The translations under genes and the position numbers were made by a program. The notes under the pieces were generated by a model that did not search any database, was not told where the DNA came from, and saw only the letters and a program-made list of their open reading frames with translations. This document shows positions 4,221-36,405 of a stretch of 42,122 bases of DNA, piece by piece. Source of the DNA: a virus; the IMG/VR virus record IMGVR_UViG_3300018481_000036, positions 1-42,122 of that record; one strand, given 5' to 3'. How positions within the stretch are numbered: position 1 is the stretch's first letter; every line of letters begins with the position of its first letter.

Positions 4221-5612
4221 TTGTTAGATGGCGTAGACACTAGTAACGCGATAATGCCGCAACCGGGGCCGCAATCGATGTTTCTAGCATCGCGTGCGGA
4301 TATTGCGATTTATGGTGGTGCGGCTGGCGGTGGTAAATCTTACGCTTTGTTACTAGAACCATGCCGACATATGGAAAATCCAGATTTCGGTGGCGTAATA
4401 TTTAGAAGACAAGCAATTCAAGTAAGAGCCGAAGGCGGTTTATACGATACTAGTTTTGGTATATACGGTCAACTAGATGCTACGCCTATGTCTAGTCCGT
4501 ATCCGAAATGGACTTTTGCTAGTGGCGCTTCAGTAGCGTTTAATCATTTGTCTAGTGATAGCGATCTGCTATCCTGGCAAGGTTCGCAAATCCCGTTTAT
4601 TGGTTACGATGAACTAACGCATTTCACTGAACGCCAATTCTGGTATATGCTATCCCGTAATCGCAGTGTTAGTGCTATCAGACCTTATTTAAGAGCAACA
4701 ACTAATCCGGATGCGGATAGTTGGGTGGCGAAACTAATTGAATGGTGGATCAATCAGGATACTGGTTACGCTATACAAGAACGTAGTGGCATAGTTCGTT
4801 ACTTTGTAAGAATGGATGATACGCTACATTGGGCAGATACCCGCCAGGCGTTGCTTGATAAATACCCGATGTTGCAACCTAAGTCTCTAACATTTATTCC
4901 TAGTAAGCTAACTGACAATAAAATACTCATGGACAACGATCCTGGGTATATGGCTAACTTAATGATAATGGGGCGAGTAGACAGGGAACGCCTACTAAAC
5001 GGTAATTGGAAAGTCAAAGAACAAGCAGGTAGTTACTTCCCTAAAACAAAGGTGAATATACTATCTGCAATTCCAACAGATGTAAAGAATTGGGTGCGTA
5101 AATGGGACTTAGCTGCAACCACTATTAGTGAAGCTAATCCTAGTCCTGACGCTACCGCATCTGTTTTGATGGGTAAACGAGAAAACGGTCGTTTTGTTAT
5201 TGCCGATGGTATTAATTTACGCGAAAATGCCAGTGATATACGTCAAGTAATTCGTAACATACTTTCGCAGGATCACGCCAGGAGTCGATCACTAACTACA
5301 ATAATTCCGCAAGACCCTGGACAAGCTGGCAAAGACCAAGCGTCTAGCCTTATATCATTTCTGTCTGGATATAAAGTAAAAGCGGTCAGAGAAACTGGCC
5401 CTAAAGTTACAAGAGCAGAACCATTATCTGCACAATGGCAAGCTAACAACGTTGATATAGTAGCTGGCGCTTGGAATGATCATTACTTGACGGAAATGGA
5501 AAACTTTCCTGATAGTAGTCACGATGACTATGTTGATGCATCTAGTGGTGCATTTCTTGAACTAGCTAGCAAGGTCAGTGACCATGCTAGACGATTAGCA
5601 CTCGCAGAATAG
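4221..5612 (+). CDS. terL: Terminase large subunit
   Basis: A 463-residue DNA-packaging motor. The ATPase Walker A motif GGAAGGGKSY is at residues 32-41 and the Walker B motif PFIGYDE at 125-131. The C-terminal RNase H-like nuclease shows KWDLAAT followed by PSPDATAS, and a late DDYVDASSGAF segment with the expected acidic residues. The start is TTG at 4221, with GGGGG about 11 nt upstream. An ATG at 4254 would also leave both domains intact but has no obvious ribosome binding site. Confidence 0.92.
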   Translation: MLDGVDTSNAIMPQPGPQSMFLASRADIAIYGGAAGGGKSYALLLEPCRHMENPDFGGVIFRRQAIQVRAEGGLYDTSFGIYGQLDATPMSSPYPKWTFASGASVAFNHLSSDSDLLSWQGSQIPFIGYDELTHFTERQFWYMLSRNRSVSAIRPYLRATTNPDADSWVAKLIEWWINQDTGYAIQERSGIVRYFVRMDDTLHWADTRQALLDKYPMLQPKSLTFIPSKLTDNKILMDNDPGYMANLMIMGRVDRERLLNGNWKVKEQAGSYFPKTKVNILSAIPTDVKNWVRKWDLAATTISEANPSPDATASVLMGKRENGRFVIADGINLRENASDIRQVIRNILSQDHARSRSLTTIIPQDPGQAGKDQASSLISFLSGYKVKAVRETGPKVTRAEPLSAQWQANNVDIVAGAWNDHYLTEMENFPDSSHDDYVDASSGAFLELASKVSDHARRLALAE

Positions 5613-5624
5613 GGGAAAACGTAT

Positions 5625-6275
5625 ATGCTAAAGTATCTACTAGCAACAACGGCAGCAATTAGTATGTTTGTGCTCGCGCCAGGAGCACACGCTGCGGTTA
5701 TTGCCGCTTTCTCGCAAGTATCGCCTACTAATACAGTAGTAGCTACCGATAACAGTGTTACTACCAACATTGTTATTGACGATGCCGTTACAAATGTATC
5801 TACATTTGGCGGTGGTGGTGCGCTAACTACTTATTTCAGCCTAAATTCTACTAGCACTGATGCTGCGGTACAGGTAGGTGGTGCGGTAATTCAGCACTAT
5901 GACGGAACGTTTTGTTTTACTTCCGCGATTAACTGTGGAGGCACTAATTACCTCACAGGTGTTTTTGATGATGCAGCGTTTGGTGCCCTTGGTGGACCGG
6001 GACTAGTTGTAAATGTAAACAATCCACCGGATGCACTAACACTCACATCCGATATTATTCCGGCGATTGATCTGCAACCACCTAGCAGTTTTTCATTGGC
6101 GTTTACTAATCTAACGCCAGTGCTTTCTATTGATGGCGCAACAATCAATGGATTTACTGCCGCTTTTGCTGGTGTTGTTAGTGCAAGCACTGGTACTGAT
6201 GTGCCCGAGCCAGGAGCATTGGCAATACTTGGCCTAGGACTAATGGGCCTTGCTGGCGTGAAGTATCGCAAGTAA
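5625..6275 (+). CDS. PEP-CTERM sorting-signal protein (phage-encoded)
   Basis: A 216-residue secreted protein. It begins with a signal peptide (positive MLK, hydrophobic core, cleavage after PGAHA). It ends in a textbook PEP-CTERM tail at residues 193-216: VPEPGAL, a hydrophobic segment ILGLGLMGLAGV, then basic KYRK. In bacteria this tail is processed by an exosortase in the inner membrane, and the proteins go to the surface or the exopolysaccharide matrix. The middle is Thr/Ser/Gly/Val-rich, low in charge, with one Cys pair, and is not recognised. It has its own ribosome binding site (AGGGGAAAA) and its stop overlaps the portal start. Base composition and CTA/CTAG use match its neighbours, so it is integrated into the phage operon. 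A host gene cluster is not visible. Confidence 0.88.
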   Translation: MLKYLLATTAAISMFVLAPGAHAAVIAAFSQVSPTNTVVATDNSVTTNIVIDDAVTNVSTFGGGGALTTYFSLNSTSTDAAVQVGGAVIQHYDGTFCFTSAINCGGTNYLTGVFDDAAFGALGGPGLVVNVNNPPDALTLTSDIIPAIDLQPPSSFSLAFTNLTPVLSIDGATINGFTAAFAGVVSASTGTDVPEPGALAILGLGLMGLAGVKYRK

Positions 6276-7681
6276 TGAACGCAATTCAGTCCAGACAAGA
6301 CGGTTTCCAGAATTTATTGTCTGGACTGAATACTGCTGGCCTAGATCGTACATCTAGCACATTTTACAAAGGCGGCTCTTGGCGCAGAGGACTAGAACGT
6401 TTTTGGGCTAGTCGTTTCAGTTATTACGATTATGCTGATATTTATGTTGGCAGTGGAATAGCACAAAAGATCATTGATCGGCCCGCTGATGATTGTTTCC
6501 AGCGTGGACTAATTATAGAAGGAGATGAAGAGGGTAGTATATACGATGAGTTTGATAGACTATCTGTATATACTCGGATGTCTGATGCTGTTAGGTGGAC
6601 TCGTCTATACGGTGGCGCGATTATACTAATCATCGTCAAAGATGGCGGTGAATTTGATACGCCATTGAACTATGATACTATAGATGAAATAATTGAACTA
6701 AAAGTGTATGACATTACTTGCATAAAGGCAACTGATCGTTATTATACTGACATAAACGATCTTATTAAATTCGGGCAACTAGAATATTTCGATCTAACCC
6801 CGCCAGGAGCAGGCACGTTTCGCGTGCATGAAACTAGATTAGTATTTATGGGTGGCGATCCGTTACCACTGAAACAATCAATTCGTAACGGACTTAATTG
6901 GATTGGACGATCTGCACTAGAAGGTTGTTTAGATGATTTATCTCGTTACGATCAAGCACTACAATGGACAATTCGGTTACTAGAGCGTAAGCAACAAGGT
7001 ATTTATGCAATGGAAGGCTTGGGCGATTTATTCGCCGAACAAGCTGACGATATTGTTTCAAAACGTATTAATCTTGTTGATTTGGTTAGGGGTAACCTTA
7101 ATTCTGTTGTTGTGGATAAGCAAGATAGTTATACTATAGAAAATCTAGGATTAGATGGTGTACAATCGGTCATACAAGAATACCAGACCGCACTTTCTGC
7201 TAGTAGTAACATTCCTGTTGTCATTCTTTTCGGAAAATCAACGACTGGACTTAACGCTACTGGCGCTGGCGATCTGGAATCTTACTATGGTATGGTTTCT
7301 CATATACAAAACGTAATAGCGAAACCATGTCTAGAAAAAATCACCGCACTACTGTATATACAACGTGCATATACCGCTAAAATCCCCGATACTTGGCATA
7401 TTGTCTTCAATCCACTATGGGCGCCAAGTGAAATTGATGTCGCAACTACTAATAAAACGAATCAAGAAGCTAATAATACCGAAGTAACTATGCTAATGAC
7501 TTTGATGATGAATGGTATCATTACACCTGAAGAAGTAAGACAAATTGTTGTTAACAAATACAGTGAATATGAATTTAGTGACGAATTGCCTTCTATAGAG
7601 GGTGACGTTGACTATGCGGAAGGAGTAGATAACGCCGAAATGGAAGTTTCGGAAGAAGAACAAGATGAAACGACCACGTAG
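6275..7681 (+). CDS. Portal protein (DUF1073 family)
   Basis: A 468-residue portal, the dodecameric channel through which DNA enters and leaves the capsid. The N-terminal pattern of aromatic residues, IVGSG-like YVGSGIAQKIIDRPADD, RWTRLYGGAII and the Ala/Ser-rich helical segment near SNIPVVILFGKSTTGLNATG fit DUF1073 anti-receptor-type portals. The C-terminus is acidic. It begins on TAATG at the end of the PEP-CTERM gene and overlaps the head morphogenesis gene by 17 nt. Confidence 0.85.
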   Translation: MNAIQSRQDGFQNLLSGLNTAGLDRTSSTFYKGGSWRRGLERFWASRFSYYDYADIYVGSGIAQKIIDRPADDCFQRGLIIEGDEEGSIYDEFDRLSVYTRMSDAVRWTRLYGGAIILIIVKDGGEFDTPLNYDTIDEIIELKVYDITCIKATDRYYTDINDLIKFGQLEYFDLTPPGAGTFRVHETRLVFMGGDPLPLKQSIRNGLNWIGRSALEGCLDDLSRYDQALQWTIRLLERKQQGIYAMEGLGDLFAEQADDIVSKRINLVDLVRGNLNSVVVDKQDSYTIENLGLDGVQSVIQEYQTALSASSNIPVVILFGKSTTGLNATGAGDLESYYGMVSHIQNVIAKPCLEKITALLYIQRAYTAKIPDTWHIVFNPLWAPSEIDVATTNKTNQEANNTEVTMLMTLMMNGIITPEEVRQIVVNKYSEYEFSDELPSIEGDVDYAEGVDNAEMEVSEEEQDETTT

Positions 7682-8528
7682 TAGAAAACTAACACCTATG
7701 GCGTATCCGATCGGCCAGGAGTATGCCTATAAGCAGATTCTACTCAATATGAATTTGCAACTAAAATTGTTACTAAAACAACAAATGTCGTTTCATGTGC
7801 CGAAAATGGCCGCAGAGGCTACTAATACTGATTTGCCAACAGGTGAAGTTAGATATGATGCCTATACTGGCTGGCAGGATCGACTCAATAAAGTAATGAT
7901 GCGAATTGCTAAAGGGATGAAACCACATACTAACAAAGCAATTAAGGAAATGTTACGAGTTGGACCTAATGTAAATGAGCATAATAAGGCTGAATGGAAG
8001 AAATTGGTTCGCTCGCAGTATGGTGTTGATCCGACTAAAGACGATCCAGTGAAATATCACTCACTGTTACAAAATTGGTCGCGTAACAATTCATTGCTGA
8101 TTAAGGATATTCCGTTCAAAACCAGTTATCAGATAGCGAAACAAGCTAGACAAGCACTAATTGACGGCACTAACGTTAAAGATACTACTGCTGCGATCTT
8201 TGATATTATGTCGGATCGCACAGATGTATCCGATAGTCGAGCGAAACTAATTGCGCGCGATCAGGTAGCTAAACTAACTGGCGAATTGACTAAAGAACGG
8301 CAATTGGACATGGGCGTAACTGGTTACATCTGGCGAACTGTTGGTGATGAACGAGTTAGGGACTCTCACAGTGAAGTAGACGGTAAATTCTTTACTTGGG
8401 ATAATCCGCCGTTTGAAACGGATGGCAACCACCCAGGAGAAGATTATCAATGTCGTTGCTGGGCAGAACCAGTATTACCTGAATTCGTTGCTTATGAAGC
8501 TTCATTACTGGAAGAAGAAGTAGAATGA
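7665..8528 (+). CDS. Phage head morphogenesis protein (Mu gpF / SPP1 gp7-like)
   Basis: A 287-residue minor head protein that sits near the portal. The C-terminal signature is clear: RVRDSHSEVDGKFFTWDNPP, then GNHPGEDYQCRCWAEP (near 257-272), with the conserved His, Cys and Arg residues of this family. The N-terminal half is helical. The start overlaps the portal gene. Position after the portal and before the protease/scaffold gene is typical. Confidence 0.88.
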   Translation: MKRPRSRKLTPMAYPIGQEYAYKQILLNMNLQLKLLLKQQMSFHVPKMAAEATNTDLPTGEVRYDAYTGWQDRLNKVMMRIAKGMKPHTNKAIKEMLRVGPNVNEHNKAEWKKLVRSQYGVDPTKDDPVKYHSLLQNWSRNNSLLIKDIPFKTSYQIAKQARQALIDGTNVKDTTAAIFDIMSDRTDVSDSRAKLIARDQVAKLTGELTKERQLDMGVTGYIWRTVGDERVRDSHSEVDGKFFTWDNPPFETDGNHPGEDYQCRCWAEPVLPEFVAYEASLLEEEVE

Positions 8529-10286: not shown

Positions 10287-11264
10287 ATGCCTGGACCGAT
10301 GGACCATACTCGTTACGATGATTCAGATGTTAGAATGCTAGCTAACGCGCCTATTGTTAGGAATAACTTTCGTGAGGATGCCGATACGATTTTTCTAGCC
10401 CGTCAGCTAGATTATGTTAGGACTGCTACTTACGATCGGCAACTACCCGGAACAAATGCTGATGCACTAGTACCAGATGATACTAGTGTGCCCGAATGGG
10501 CTGAAACTGTAACTCAATATGCGTACGATATGGTTGGCATGGCGAAAGTTATTTCTAACTATGCGGACGATCTCCCGCGCGCTGATGTCAGAACGATATC
10601 GCGATCTGTTTCTGTTAGGACTCTTGGCGATAGTTACGGTTATAATATCAACGAGCTTCGTGCTAGTCGTGCTACTGGTGCTGGACTAGATGCAAGAAAA
10701 GCCGCTGCCGCCAGGAGAGCAATGGACATTAAGATTATGTCCATTAAGCTAAATGGCGATACTATGTATAACTTGTTTGGATTGTTTACGCATCCGAACG
10801 TTCCTGTACAAGTATTGCCTGTTACTGGCGATTGGGGTGGACTAACTGGCGATCAGATACTACAAAACCTTATCGCTTGGGTAACAGGTTATCAGAACCA
10901 AACTAAAGGCACGCACGCGCCAACCCATCTCGAATTGGCACCAAAAGCTTATACTGCCGCTAGTACTAAATTCATTACTGCGGCGGGTAGTATGGTTACG
11001 CCAATGATGTGGTTTCGTGCTAATTACCCGAATATTACGGTAGAGAATATTTGGGAACTTACTAACGCTGCATCCTCCGGAACTAAAGATTTGGGCTTGT
11101 TGTATGAGCGCAGTGCCGATAACATCTCGCACACATATGTTATGCCGTTCGCGCAACTTCCTCCGGAAGCACGTAATCTGGAAATCGTTACAGATTGCGT
11201 AGCTCGTTCTGGTGGTGTAAACATCTTTTACCCGCTTGCACTACTGTCTGCGCTAACTACCTAA
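10287..11264 (+). CDS. Major capsid protein (DUF2184-like, HK97 fold)
   Basis: A 325-residue protein expected to form the icosahedral shell. Its features match DUF2184 capsid proteins: an N-arm with FLARQLDYV, the VPEWAETVTQYAYDMVG stretch, GLFTHPNVPV, and a C-terminal YVMPFAQLPPEARNLEI followed by RSGGVNIFYPLAL. It has a good ribosome binding site (GGGGAAA). Its neighbours on both sides are capsid and neck genes. Confidence 0.9.
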   Translation: MPGPMDHTRYDDSDVRMLANAPIVRNNFREDADTIFLARQLDYVRTATYDRQLPGTNADALVPDDTSVPEWAETVTQYAYDMVGMAKVISNYADDLPRADVRTISRSVSVRTLGDSYGYNINELRASRATGAGLDARKAAAARRAMDIKIMSIKLNGDTMYNLFGLFTHPNVPVQVLPVTGDWGGLTGDQILQNLIAWVTGYQNQTKGTHAPTHLELAPKAYTAASTKFITAAGSMVTPMMWFRANYPNITVENIWELTNAASSGTKDLGLLYERSADNISHTYVMPFAQLPPEARNLEIVTDCVARSGGVNIFYPLALLSALTT

Positions 11265-30628: not shown

Positions 30629-30964
30629 ATGCCTGCAACGTTTAATACTACCATTCCATTTACCATCGAAGTAGCAGTAACAGTCAATGATACTGTTACA
30701 CTATACTTCAATGGTGATCCAGATGGACCGATCAATATGACTGCGGTGCCCACTGACAATAGTGGCACAGTCGTTGCTAATATTACTGCGATTACTGCTA
30801 CTGGCACGCCGTATACCCATCCAATTACCATGACTGGCACCGATGCTAATAAATTCTCACTAACTAACGGCGGTGTGCCACCATGTAATTTGGTTATTGG
30901 TGCTACTGATCTAACCGAAGGCGTGCATACAGGTTCACTAACATTTAAGGCACCGAAGCCATGA
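30629..30964 (+). CDS. Small beta-sandwich (Ig-like) protein
   Basis: A 111-residue Thr/Val-rich protein (AVTVNDTVTLYFNGDPDG, TGTDANKFSLTNGG, GVHTGSLTFKAP) with the alternating pattern of an Ig-like domain used as phage surface decoration or carbohydrate binder. It overlaps the next gene as ATGA, suggesting they act together. Confidence 0.6.
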   Translation: MPATFNTTIPFTIEVAVTVNDTVTLYFNGDPDGPINMTAVPTDNSGTVVANITAITATGTPYTHPITMTGTDANKFSLTNGGVPPCNLVIGATDLTEGVHTGSLTFKAPKP

Positions 30965-35556: not shown

Positions 35557-36405
35557 TCATGCCATAGGCCAATTCGGTGGCGCAAGGAAATGCGCGTGAC
35601 CAAGATGGTCAATGACATATGGCTTCGGCGGCGGCTCGTGGTAATGCAATTCATACATCACATGATGCAGATGTGACAAGAACAATTTTACTGCATAACG
35701 TTTTGCTCTTGCATGAATATGTGCTGGTGGTAGTTTGCCAGTCAAGTAATGCTTTTTTGCTTCAGTATCGGCCGCAAAGTTTTTTGTTGCCAGAATATGT
35801 TCCGCTTGCGAAGCAAATTGTAGTGCTTCGTTCTTCATAATCTCTTGTTGCTTACGCGCAAGATATACTTTGCCGTAAACATCGCTTTCCAAATACGATA
35901 CTTTAACAAAACTTTCCCCAATAATCCAGCACAGTCGTTTCAGCGAGCCATTCCATGGCCGCTTTTCTTTCTTATTCCATACAACTGTTGGATCTTGGCC
36001 AGCATAACGCCAAATATGCCCAACAGTTGGCGCTTTTGTTATGTCAATATGAGTAACTAACCCAGCCGAAATGATCGGACCAATACCAGTGATACTCCTG
36101 GCCCATTTGCTTGATGGATTAGTGTTACTGTATACATCTAACGCACGCGCTACTTGTTTCTCTAGTGTAGCGCGCTGATTAGTTAGCCAATCCAACACCA
36201 CATTGGGTTCTTTATTACTCTCTAACGTCCTAGTCTGGTGACTAGCGCGAATGCGATCCCGCTGCATTGCATAGTAACTGTCTACCAGAAATCTTACTTC
36301 CCGGTCAGATAGTGTGCGAGAAGCATTACGCAAATCTTTGGTTAGTCTGTCTATTGAACCAAGGATTTCGTTAATATCGAAGTCATTGTTAGTTGTTTCA
36401 CTCAT
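35557..36405 (-). CDS. Tas-like protein: Nop/IS110 C-terminal-type domain, no nuclease
   Basis: A 282-residue protein. Residues 1-95 are helical with a charged coiled coil. Residues 101-175 show SITGIGPIISAGLV (107-110 is GIGP), IWRYAGQDP at 131-139 and SLKRLCWIIGESF at 154-166. This is the pattern of the Tnp_20/Nop domain shared by IS110 transposases and box C/D Nop proteins. The IS110 RuvC-like DEDD N-terminus is missing, and no HNH or RuvC motif is seen, so it is best compared to TasA. It would bind the processed array RNA. The gene ends 70 nt before the array. The start overlaps the Arc-like gene by 8 nt. Confidence 0.78.
   Translation of the reverse strand: MSETTNNDFDINEILGSIDRLTKDLRNASRTLSDREVRFLVDSYYAMQRDRIRASHQTRTLESNKEPNVVLDWLTNQRATLEKQVARALDVYSNTNPSSKWARSITGIGPIISAGLVTHIDITKAPTVGHIWRYAGQDPTVVWNKKEKRPWNGSLKRLCWIIGESFVKVSYLESDVYGKVYLARKQQEIMKNEALQFASQAEHILATKNFAADTEAKKHYLTGKLPPAHIHARAKRYAVKLFLSHLHHVMYELHYHEPPPKPYVIDHLGHAHFLAPPNWPMA

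Follow-up and report, generated by a model that had tools for sequence, protein, structure and literature searches.

The window, by which we mean the whole 42,122-b IMG/VR virus record analysed here, carries a gene for a protein with a PEP-CTERM tail between the genes for the terminase large subunit and the portal protein, as the original prediction had stated. The features of this region are as follows.

4221..5612, + strand: terL, terminase large subunit, the upstream neighbour (Pfam Terminase_6N/6C; phrog_979)
5611..5617, + strand: Shine-Dalgarno-like AGGGGAA, 7 nt before the PEP-CTERM ATG, read from the sequence
5625..6275, + strand: PEP-CTERM protein gene, 216 aa, ATG start (Pfam PF07589, E 3.1e-7)
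5625..5693, + strand: signal-peptide codons, residues 1-23, with probable cleavage near AHA/AV (sequence, hydropathy and helix 2-16 of the model)
5694..6200, + strand: ectodomain, a predicted antiparallel beta-barrel (AlphaFold2, alignments, VIA-align)
6201..6272, + strand: PEP-CTERM tail, VPEP-GALAILGLGLMGLAGV-KYRK (Pfam and family alignment; Glu195-Pro196 invariant in 53 members)
6275..7681, + strand: portal protein, the downstream neighbour (Pfam Phage_portal_3, E 2.6e-76)
7665..8528, + strand: Mu F-like head morphogenesis protein (Pfam PF04233)
10287..11264, + strand: major capsid protein (Pfam PF09950)

The TerL, portal, Mu F-like, and major capsid neighbours were assigned by both Pfam and PHROGs. 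A 12-nt gap separates the terL stop from the PEP-CTERM ATG, and at the other end the PEP-CTERM stop (TAA) shares 1 nt with the portal ATG (TAATG at 6275); the predicted placement within the packaging/head operon was thus borne out. Promoter-like and terminator-like sites around the gene were not above those in shuffled sequence, so we read it as a member of this operon, and its position suggests that it is expressed late. None of the sigma-54-like sites close upstream matched well. Elsewhere in the window, one perfect match to the sigma-54 -24/-12 consensus, TGGCACAGTCGTTGCT, lies at 30763-30778, and matches with up to 2 mismatches were somewhat commoner than in shuffles (38 vs 23.5). An ORF at 35557-36405 (- strand) gave a weak, sub-cutoff match to Transposase_20 (E 0.009).

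The two terminal signals that the original prediction had read from the protein were both recovered. PF07589 matched residues 192-215 (30.6 bits against a gathering cutoff of 20.7), and TIGR02595 also matched the tail VPEPGALAILGLGLMGLAGVKYRK above its cutoff (17.1 bits against 16). Both visual inspection and hydropathy suggest a signal peptide at the N-terminus, MLKYLLATTAAISMFVLAPGAHAA, and the positive N-terminus, the hydropathy profile, and the signal peptide were kept in all family members with complete N-termini. The AlphaFold2 model, built from 53 sequences (mean pLDDT 88.5, pTM 0.78), consists of a signal helix, an antiparallel barrel, and a C-terminal helix; its only helices are at 2-16, 147-150, and 198-215, and there is no further TM segment. 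Cys97 and Cys104 were kept in most, not all, of the aligned members. Foldseek found no match under 1e-3 in PDB or BFVD, and the top VIA-align matches, PloI4/AbyU and dirigent-like barrels (Z 9.4, 3.6 A, 124 residues), were barely above the tool's "common" level; any assignment to the AbyU/PloI4 or dirigent/allene-oxide-cyclase-like barrel fold is tentative, and the structure points to no function. Neither tool identified a carbohydrate-binding fold. Among NCBIfam models the best whole-protein match was a weak one to floc_PepA (E 1.5e-8; 34.8 bits against a cutoff of 80). Membership in PepA (NF033554; Zoogloea, Aquincola) was rejected, the score being under cutoff and no NCBIfam match being left once the tail was removed.

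The original prediction had proposed a search of other phages for PEP-CTERM tails, and three successive rounds of viral-contig scanning, each with a larger alignment, uncovered a family. Relatives occurred in at least 103 IMG/VR viral contigs, with 43-71% identity among those listed, and, apart from the window, 80 loci were inspected closely. Removal of near-duplicates left 53 members, all of which kept the EP dipeptide, the hydrophobic helix, and the basic end; 50 matched PF07589. Not only E195 and P196 but also many ectodomain residues were invariant in the alignment. The first Pro of PEP was lost in several members (KEP, TEP, GEP, IEP), and thus tail processing might be relaxed in some lineages. 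All members found were in IMG/VR contigs, whose identifiers suggest metagenomes. Two scans of the genomes of 84,980 prokaryote species gave no family member, though the peptide patterns were hit by 50 stretches in one scan and 47 in the other. INPHARED phages and PLSDB plasmids likewise contained no member. Because such scans depend on tblastn similarity or on short peptides that are conserved, bacteria may still have ectodomain relatives that are more distant. None of the 53 members matched PHROG v4 at E 1e-3.

The carriers fell into seven TerL groups at a 30% identity threshold. Together with the count of at least 103 viral contigs, this excludes an isolated recent insertion, which the original prediction had named as an observation that would count against it. 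TerL and PEP protein identities were weakly correlated (r 0.17), and about 18% TerL identity was compatible with PEP proteins that were 80-93% identical. For example, L003 and L004 share 18% of TerL and 84% of the PEP protein, and L073 and L074 share 15% and 93%. Conversely, L004 and L008 have the same TerL sequence, and the 2.7 kb of DNA leading up to the PEP gene is 97% identical between them, while the PEP proteins are 61% identical. In two pairs (L023/L035 and L072/L074) the signal peptide was replaced beside an almost identical ectodomain. Position varied even among phages of the clade to which the window belongs (TerL at least 60%): the gene occupies the terL-portal slot in the window, L001, L004, L008, L009, and L062, lies before terL in L023, L024, L029, L033, and others, and lies behind the capsid gene in L020 and L021. 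None was seen in the fetched stretches of the clade relatives L088, L091, and L092; the stretch of L089 starts at terL, and its upstream slot is outside its sequence. Twenty disjoint pairs that diverge moderately at synonymous sites gave a dN/dS of 0.34 for the ectodomain, 0.37 for the tail, and 0.58 for the signal peptide; these are rough figures because a few pairs came from near-duplicate contigs. These values point to purifying selection on the ectodomain and the tail. A pattern in which close phages trade alleles and unrelated phages share the gene would be expected of a host-surface gene in phage competition.

Other PEP-CTERM proteins were found in the same setting. In L087 (TerL 68%), the terL-portal slot is filled by another PEP-CTERM protein of 203 aa, whose signal-peptide DNA is identical to that of L001 at 58 of 69 positions and whose ectodomain is unrelated to the window family. 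Thus, the content of the slot changes and the tag stays. Over 152 residues this ectodomain is 51% identical to PEP-CTERM proteins encoded on Acidiphilium plasmids (WP_013634985 and relatives), whereas the match of these plasmid proteins to the window family was confined to the tail. The sequence link to Acidiphilium may be taken as a hint, and only a hint, at host range. About 15 viral contigs in all had relatives of the L087 type; both types stand in tandem in some phages (L038, L081), a third type accompanies L075 and L079, and 8 of 51 records contained two PEP-CTERM genes in convincing frames by PF07589. The Acidiphilium plasmids L191, L192, and L193, which are mobilizable or conjugative, carry several PEP-CTERM copies adjoined by IS1595-type transposases or tyrosine recombinases; no exosortase was found on the three plasmids searched.

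Some PEP loci have accompanying ORFs. Of the 82 PEP loci, 31 had somewhere in the stretch fetched a proline-rich ORF with PDNSLPG-type repeats, a conserved FWVVxxIPGxGWRYVxVDPSL segment, and no signal peptide by eye; the distance was at most 300 b in 23 cases (examples are L001:9154-9699, L008:4658-5227, L020:9466-9951, L062:10660-11169, and L087:11405-11809). Of 77 TerL relatives without the window PEP family, the one that had it was L087, the carrier of the other PEP-CTERM protein. The window has no such ORF, and the ORF matched no PHROG or Pfam family and nothing in INPHARED. A right-handed beta-helix (NosD-like) protein adjoins the PEP-CTERM gene at L074:8222-9325, and similar ORFs were seen in L013, L018, L025, and L073.

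It had also been pointed out that an octamer, GCCAGGAG, overlaps both the signal-peptide codons and the EPGA codons. The overlap is real (the octamer covers residues APGA at 5678 and EPGA at 6209, with another copy at 6802), but it proved a coincidence of a genome-wide word. The octamer occurred 43 times on both strands of the window, against 0.7 expected from base composition, fell in all reading frames, and was strongly enriched in the close relatives L001, L009, L062, L087, and L092 and not in unrelated carriers; it is therefore not a feature of the PEP gene. Its function may be Chi-like, or it may serve packaging or modification. It marks the signal-peptide side in L001, L023, L024, and L087. 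A role as the boundary of ectodomain swaps was unsupported, since the octamer flanks both sides in the window only and is genome-wide in the clade.

An exosortase (EpsH, PF09721) was detected above cutoff in none of the 51 carrier records and an integrase in 4 of them (none in the window), although most of these records may be incomplete and either gene may be missed. The sole sub-cutoff PF09721 match, in the L058 record, was rejected because its short frame runs antisense to a tail-fibre-like ORF of 513 aa. Any processing would thus fall to a host enzyme. Most carriers probably do not integrate, which makes lysogenic conversion an unlikely general setting for the gene. A temperate-phage moron was considered and rejected, because the flanking promoter- and terminator-like sites were not above shuffles, the portal start is overlapped, and integrases were this few. 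The portal model PF12236 matched nowhere, controls included, and was uninformative, and PADLOC gave no match.

Taken together, our best explanation, held tentatively and at slightly less than even odds, is that the family is a large, so far unnamed set of predicted exosortase substrates that phages maintain and that remodel the surface of the infected cell. The PEP protein would be made together with the packaging and head proteins, secreted by the host Sec system, and anchored in the inner membrane through its PEP-CTERM helix. Host exosortase would then cut before the helix and leave the beta-barrel domain on the outer surface or in the exopolysaccharide (EPS) of the infected cell. With its surface covered or changed, the doomed cell and its debris might adsorb fewer competing or sister phages, or progeny might leave the matrix more easily. 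These steps are not equally firm. Export, processing, and surface location are likely, because Sec export, exosortase cleavage, and a surface or EPS location would follow from the known system (PMC1569441, PMC12188702, PMC9850573). Receptor masking or exclusion by itself is speculative and rather less probable than the reverse, and to name receptor masking, EPS release, or a superinfection block as the benefit is speculation. A product expressed late would arrive late for superinfection exclusion. We give an even chance to the reading in which a mobile late-gene cassette is common to diverse environmental phages and its interchangeable ectodomains are displayed on the host surface via host exosortase.

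The closest competitor to this surface-remodelling reading has the protein act on EPS and aggregation: PepA-like EPS binding would alter the clumping of infected cells, progeny would be released or retained, and masking would be beside the point. Host PEP-CTERM proteins hold EPS to cells in floc formation (PMC9850573), and floc_PepA was the best weak match of the whole protein; however, this match disappeared without the tail, no carbohydrate-binding fold came up in the fold searches, and we consider such a role possible but unlikely, at about one chance in four. Less probable by far is that an abundant tail competes for host exosortase as a decoy and leaves host surface proteins unprocessed, with the ectodomain incidental. 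Such a decoy would agree with a tail kept in all members and with carrier records in which exosortase was not detected, but selection on the ectodomain was at least as strong as on the tail, and the conservation of the ectodomain, with its many invariant residues, speaks against a pure decoy.

Equally improbable, and already disfavoured, is a passenger recently picked up from a host and playing no role in the phage. The bacterial relatives of the L087-type protein on Acidiphilium plasmids and the absence of the gene from the fetched stretches of some relatives (L088, L091, L092) would fit this origin; purifying selection and the spread over so many viral contigs speak against it, as do the translational overlap with portal and the failure of the 84,980-species scans to find a bacterial copy. 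The least probable reading, by a small step, makes the protein a virion or injection-related component with the tail as a mere membrane anchor. Its position between terL and portal, or near capsid or portal genes in other carriers, would suit a virion part, but the signal peptide directs the protein out of the cytoplasm, where heads assemble, and even inside a single clade the gene can precede terL, follow terL, or follow the capsid gene. Surface remodelling is the preferred reading; phages exchange versions of a protein that seems tagged for surface display, an exchange that suggests late remodelling of the host surface during infection.

Discussion of exosortase sorting has so far treated it as bacterial. 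A phage family of substrates this large, passed between unrelated phages, would demonstrate that viruses make use of it as well. For uncultured phages, PEP-CTERM carriage would indicate hosts that are likely to be exosortase-positive, the family would supply natural tags and cargos for testing exosortase action and what phages gain from surface change, and the function of PEP-CTERM proteins would become testable through infection. In the literature searched, no paper linked PEP-CTERM with phage-encoded genes, and a phage surface-remodelling system of this kind had not been described before.

PEP-CTERM tagging itself is already known; what the sequences would add is phage-encoded exosortase substrates as a putative mobile cassette. 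The phage protein resembles the substrates of the PEP-CTERM/exosortase (EpsH) system of environmental bacteria (Haft et al. 2006, PMC1569441) in its signal peptide, near-invariant PEP, hydrophobic helix, and basic C-terminus, and host PEP-CTERM proteins have been tied to EPS and cell-surface adhesion (PMC1569441, PMC9850573, PMC12188702). In the EpsH system, however, the genes form single-gene operons behind large intergenic regions (PMC1569441), whereas the phage gene lies in a packaging/head operon with no exosortase detected beside it. With PepA, the phage protein has the tail and the export logic in common. Phage superinfection-exclusion proteins that act at the surface, for example phage lipoproteins, use lipoprotein or membrane anchors. 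An action at the host surface is likewise proposed here, but the phage PEP protein carries an exosortase tag instead.
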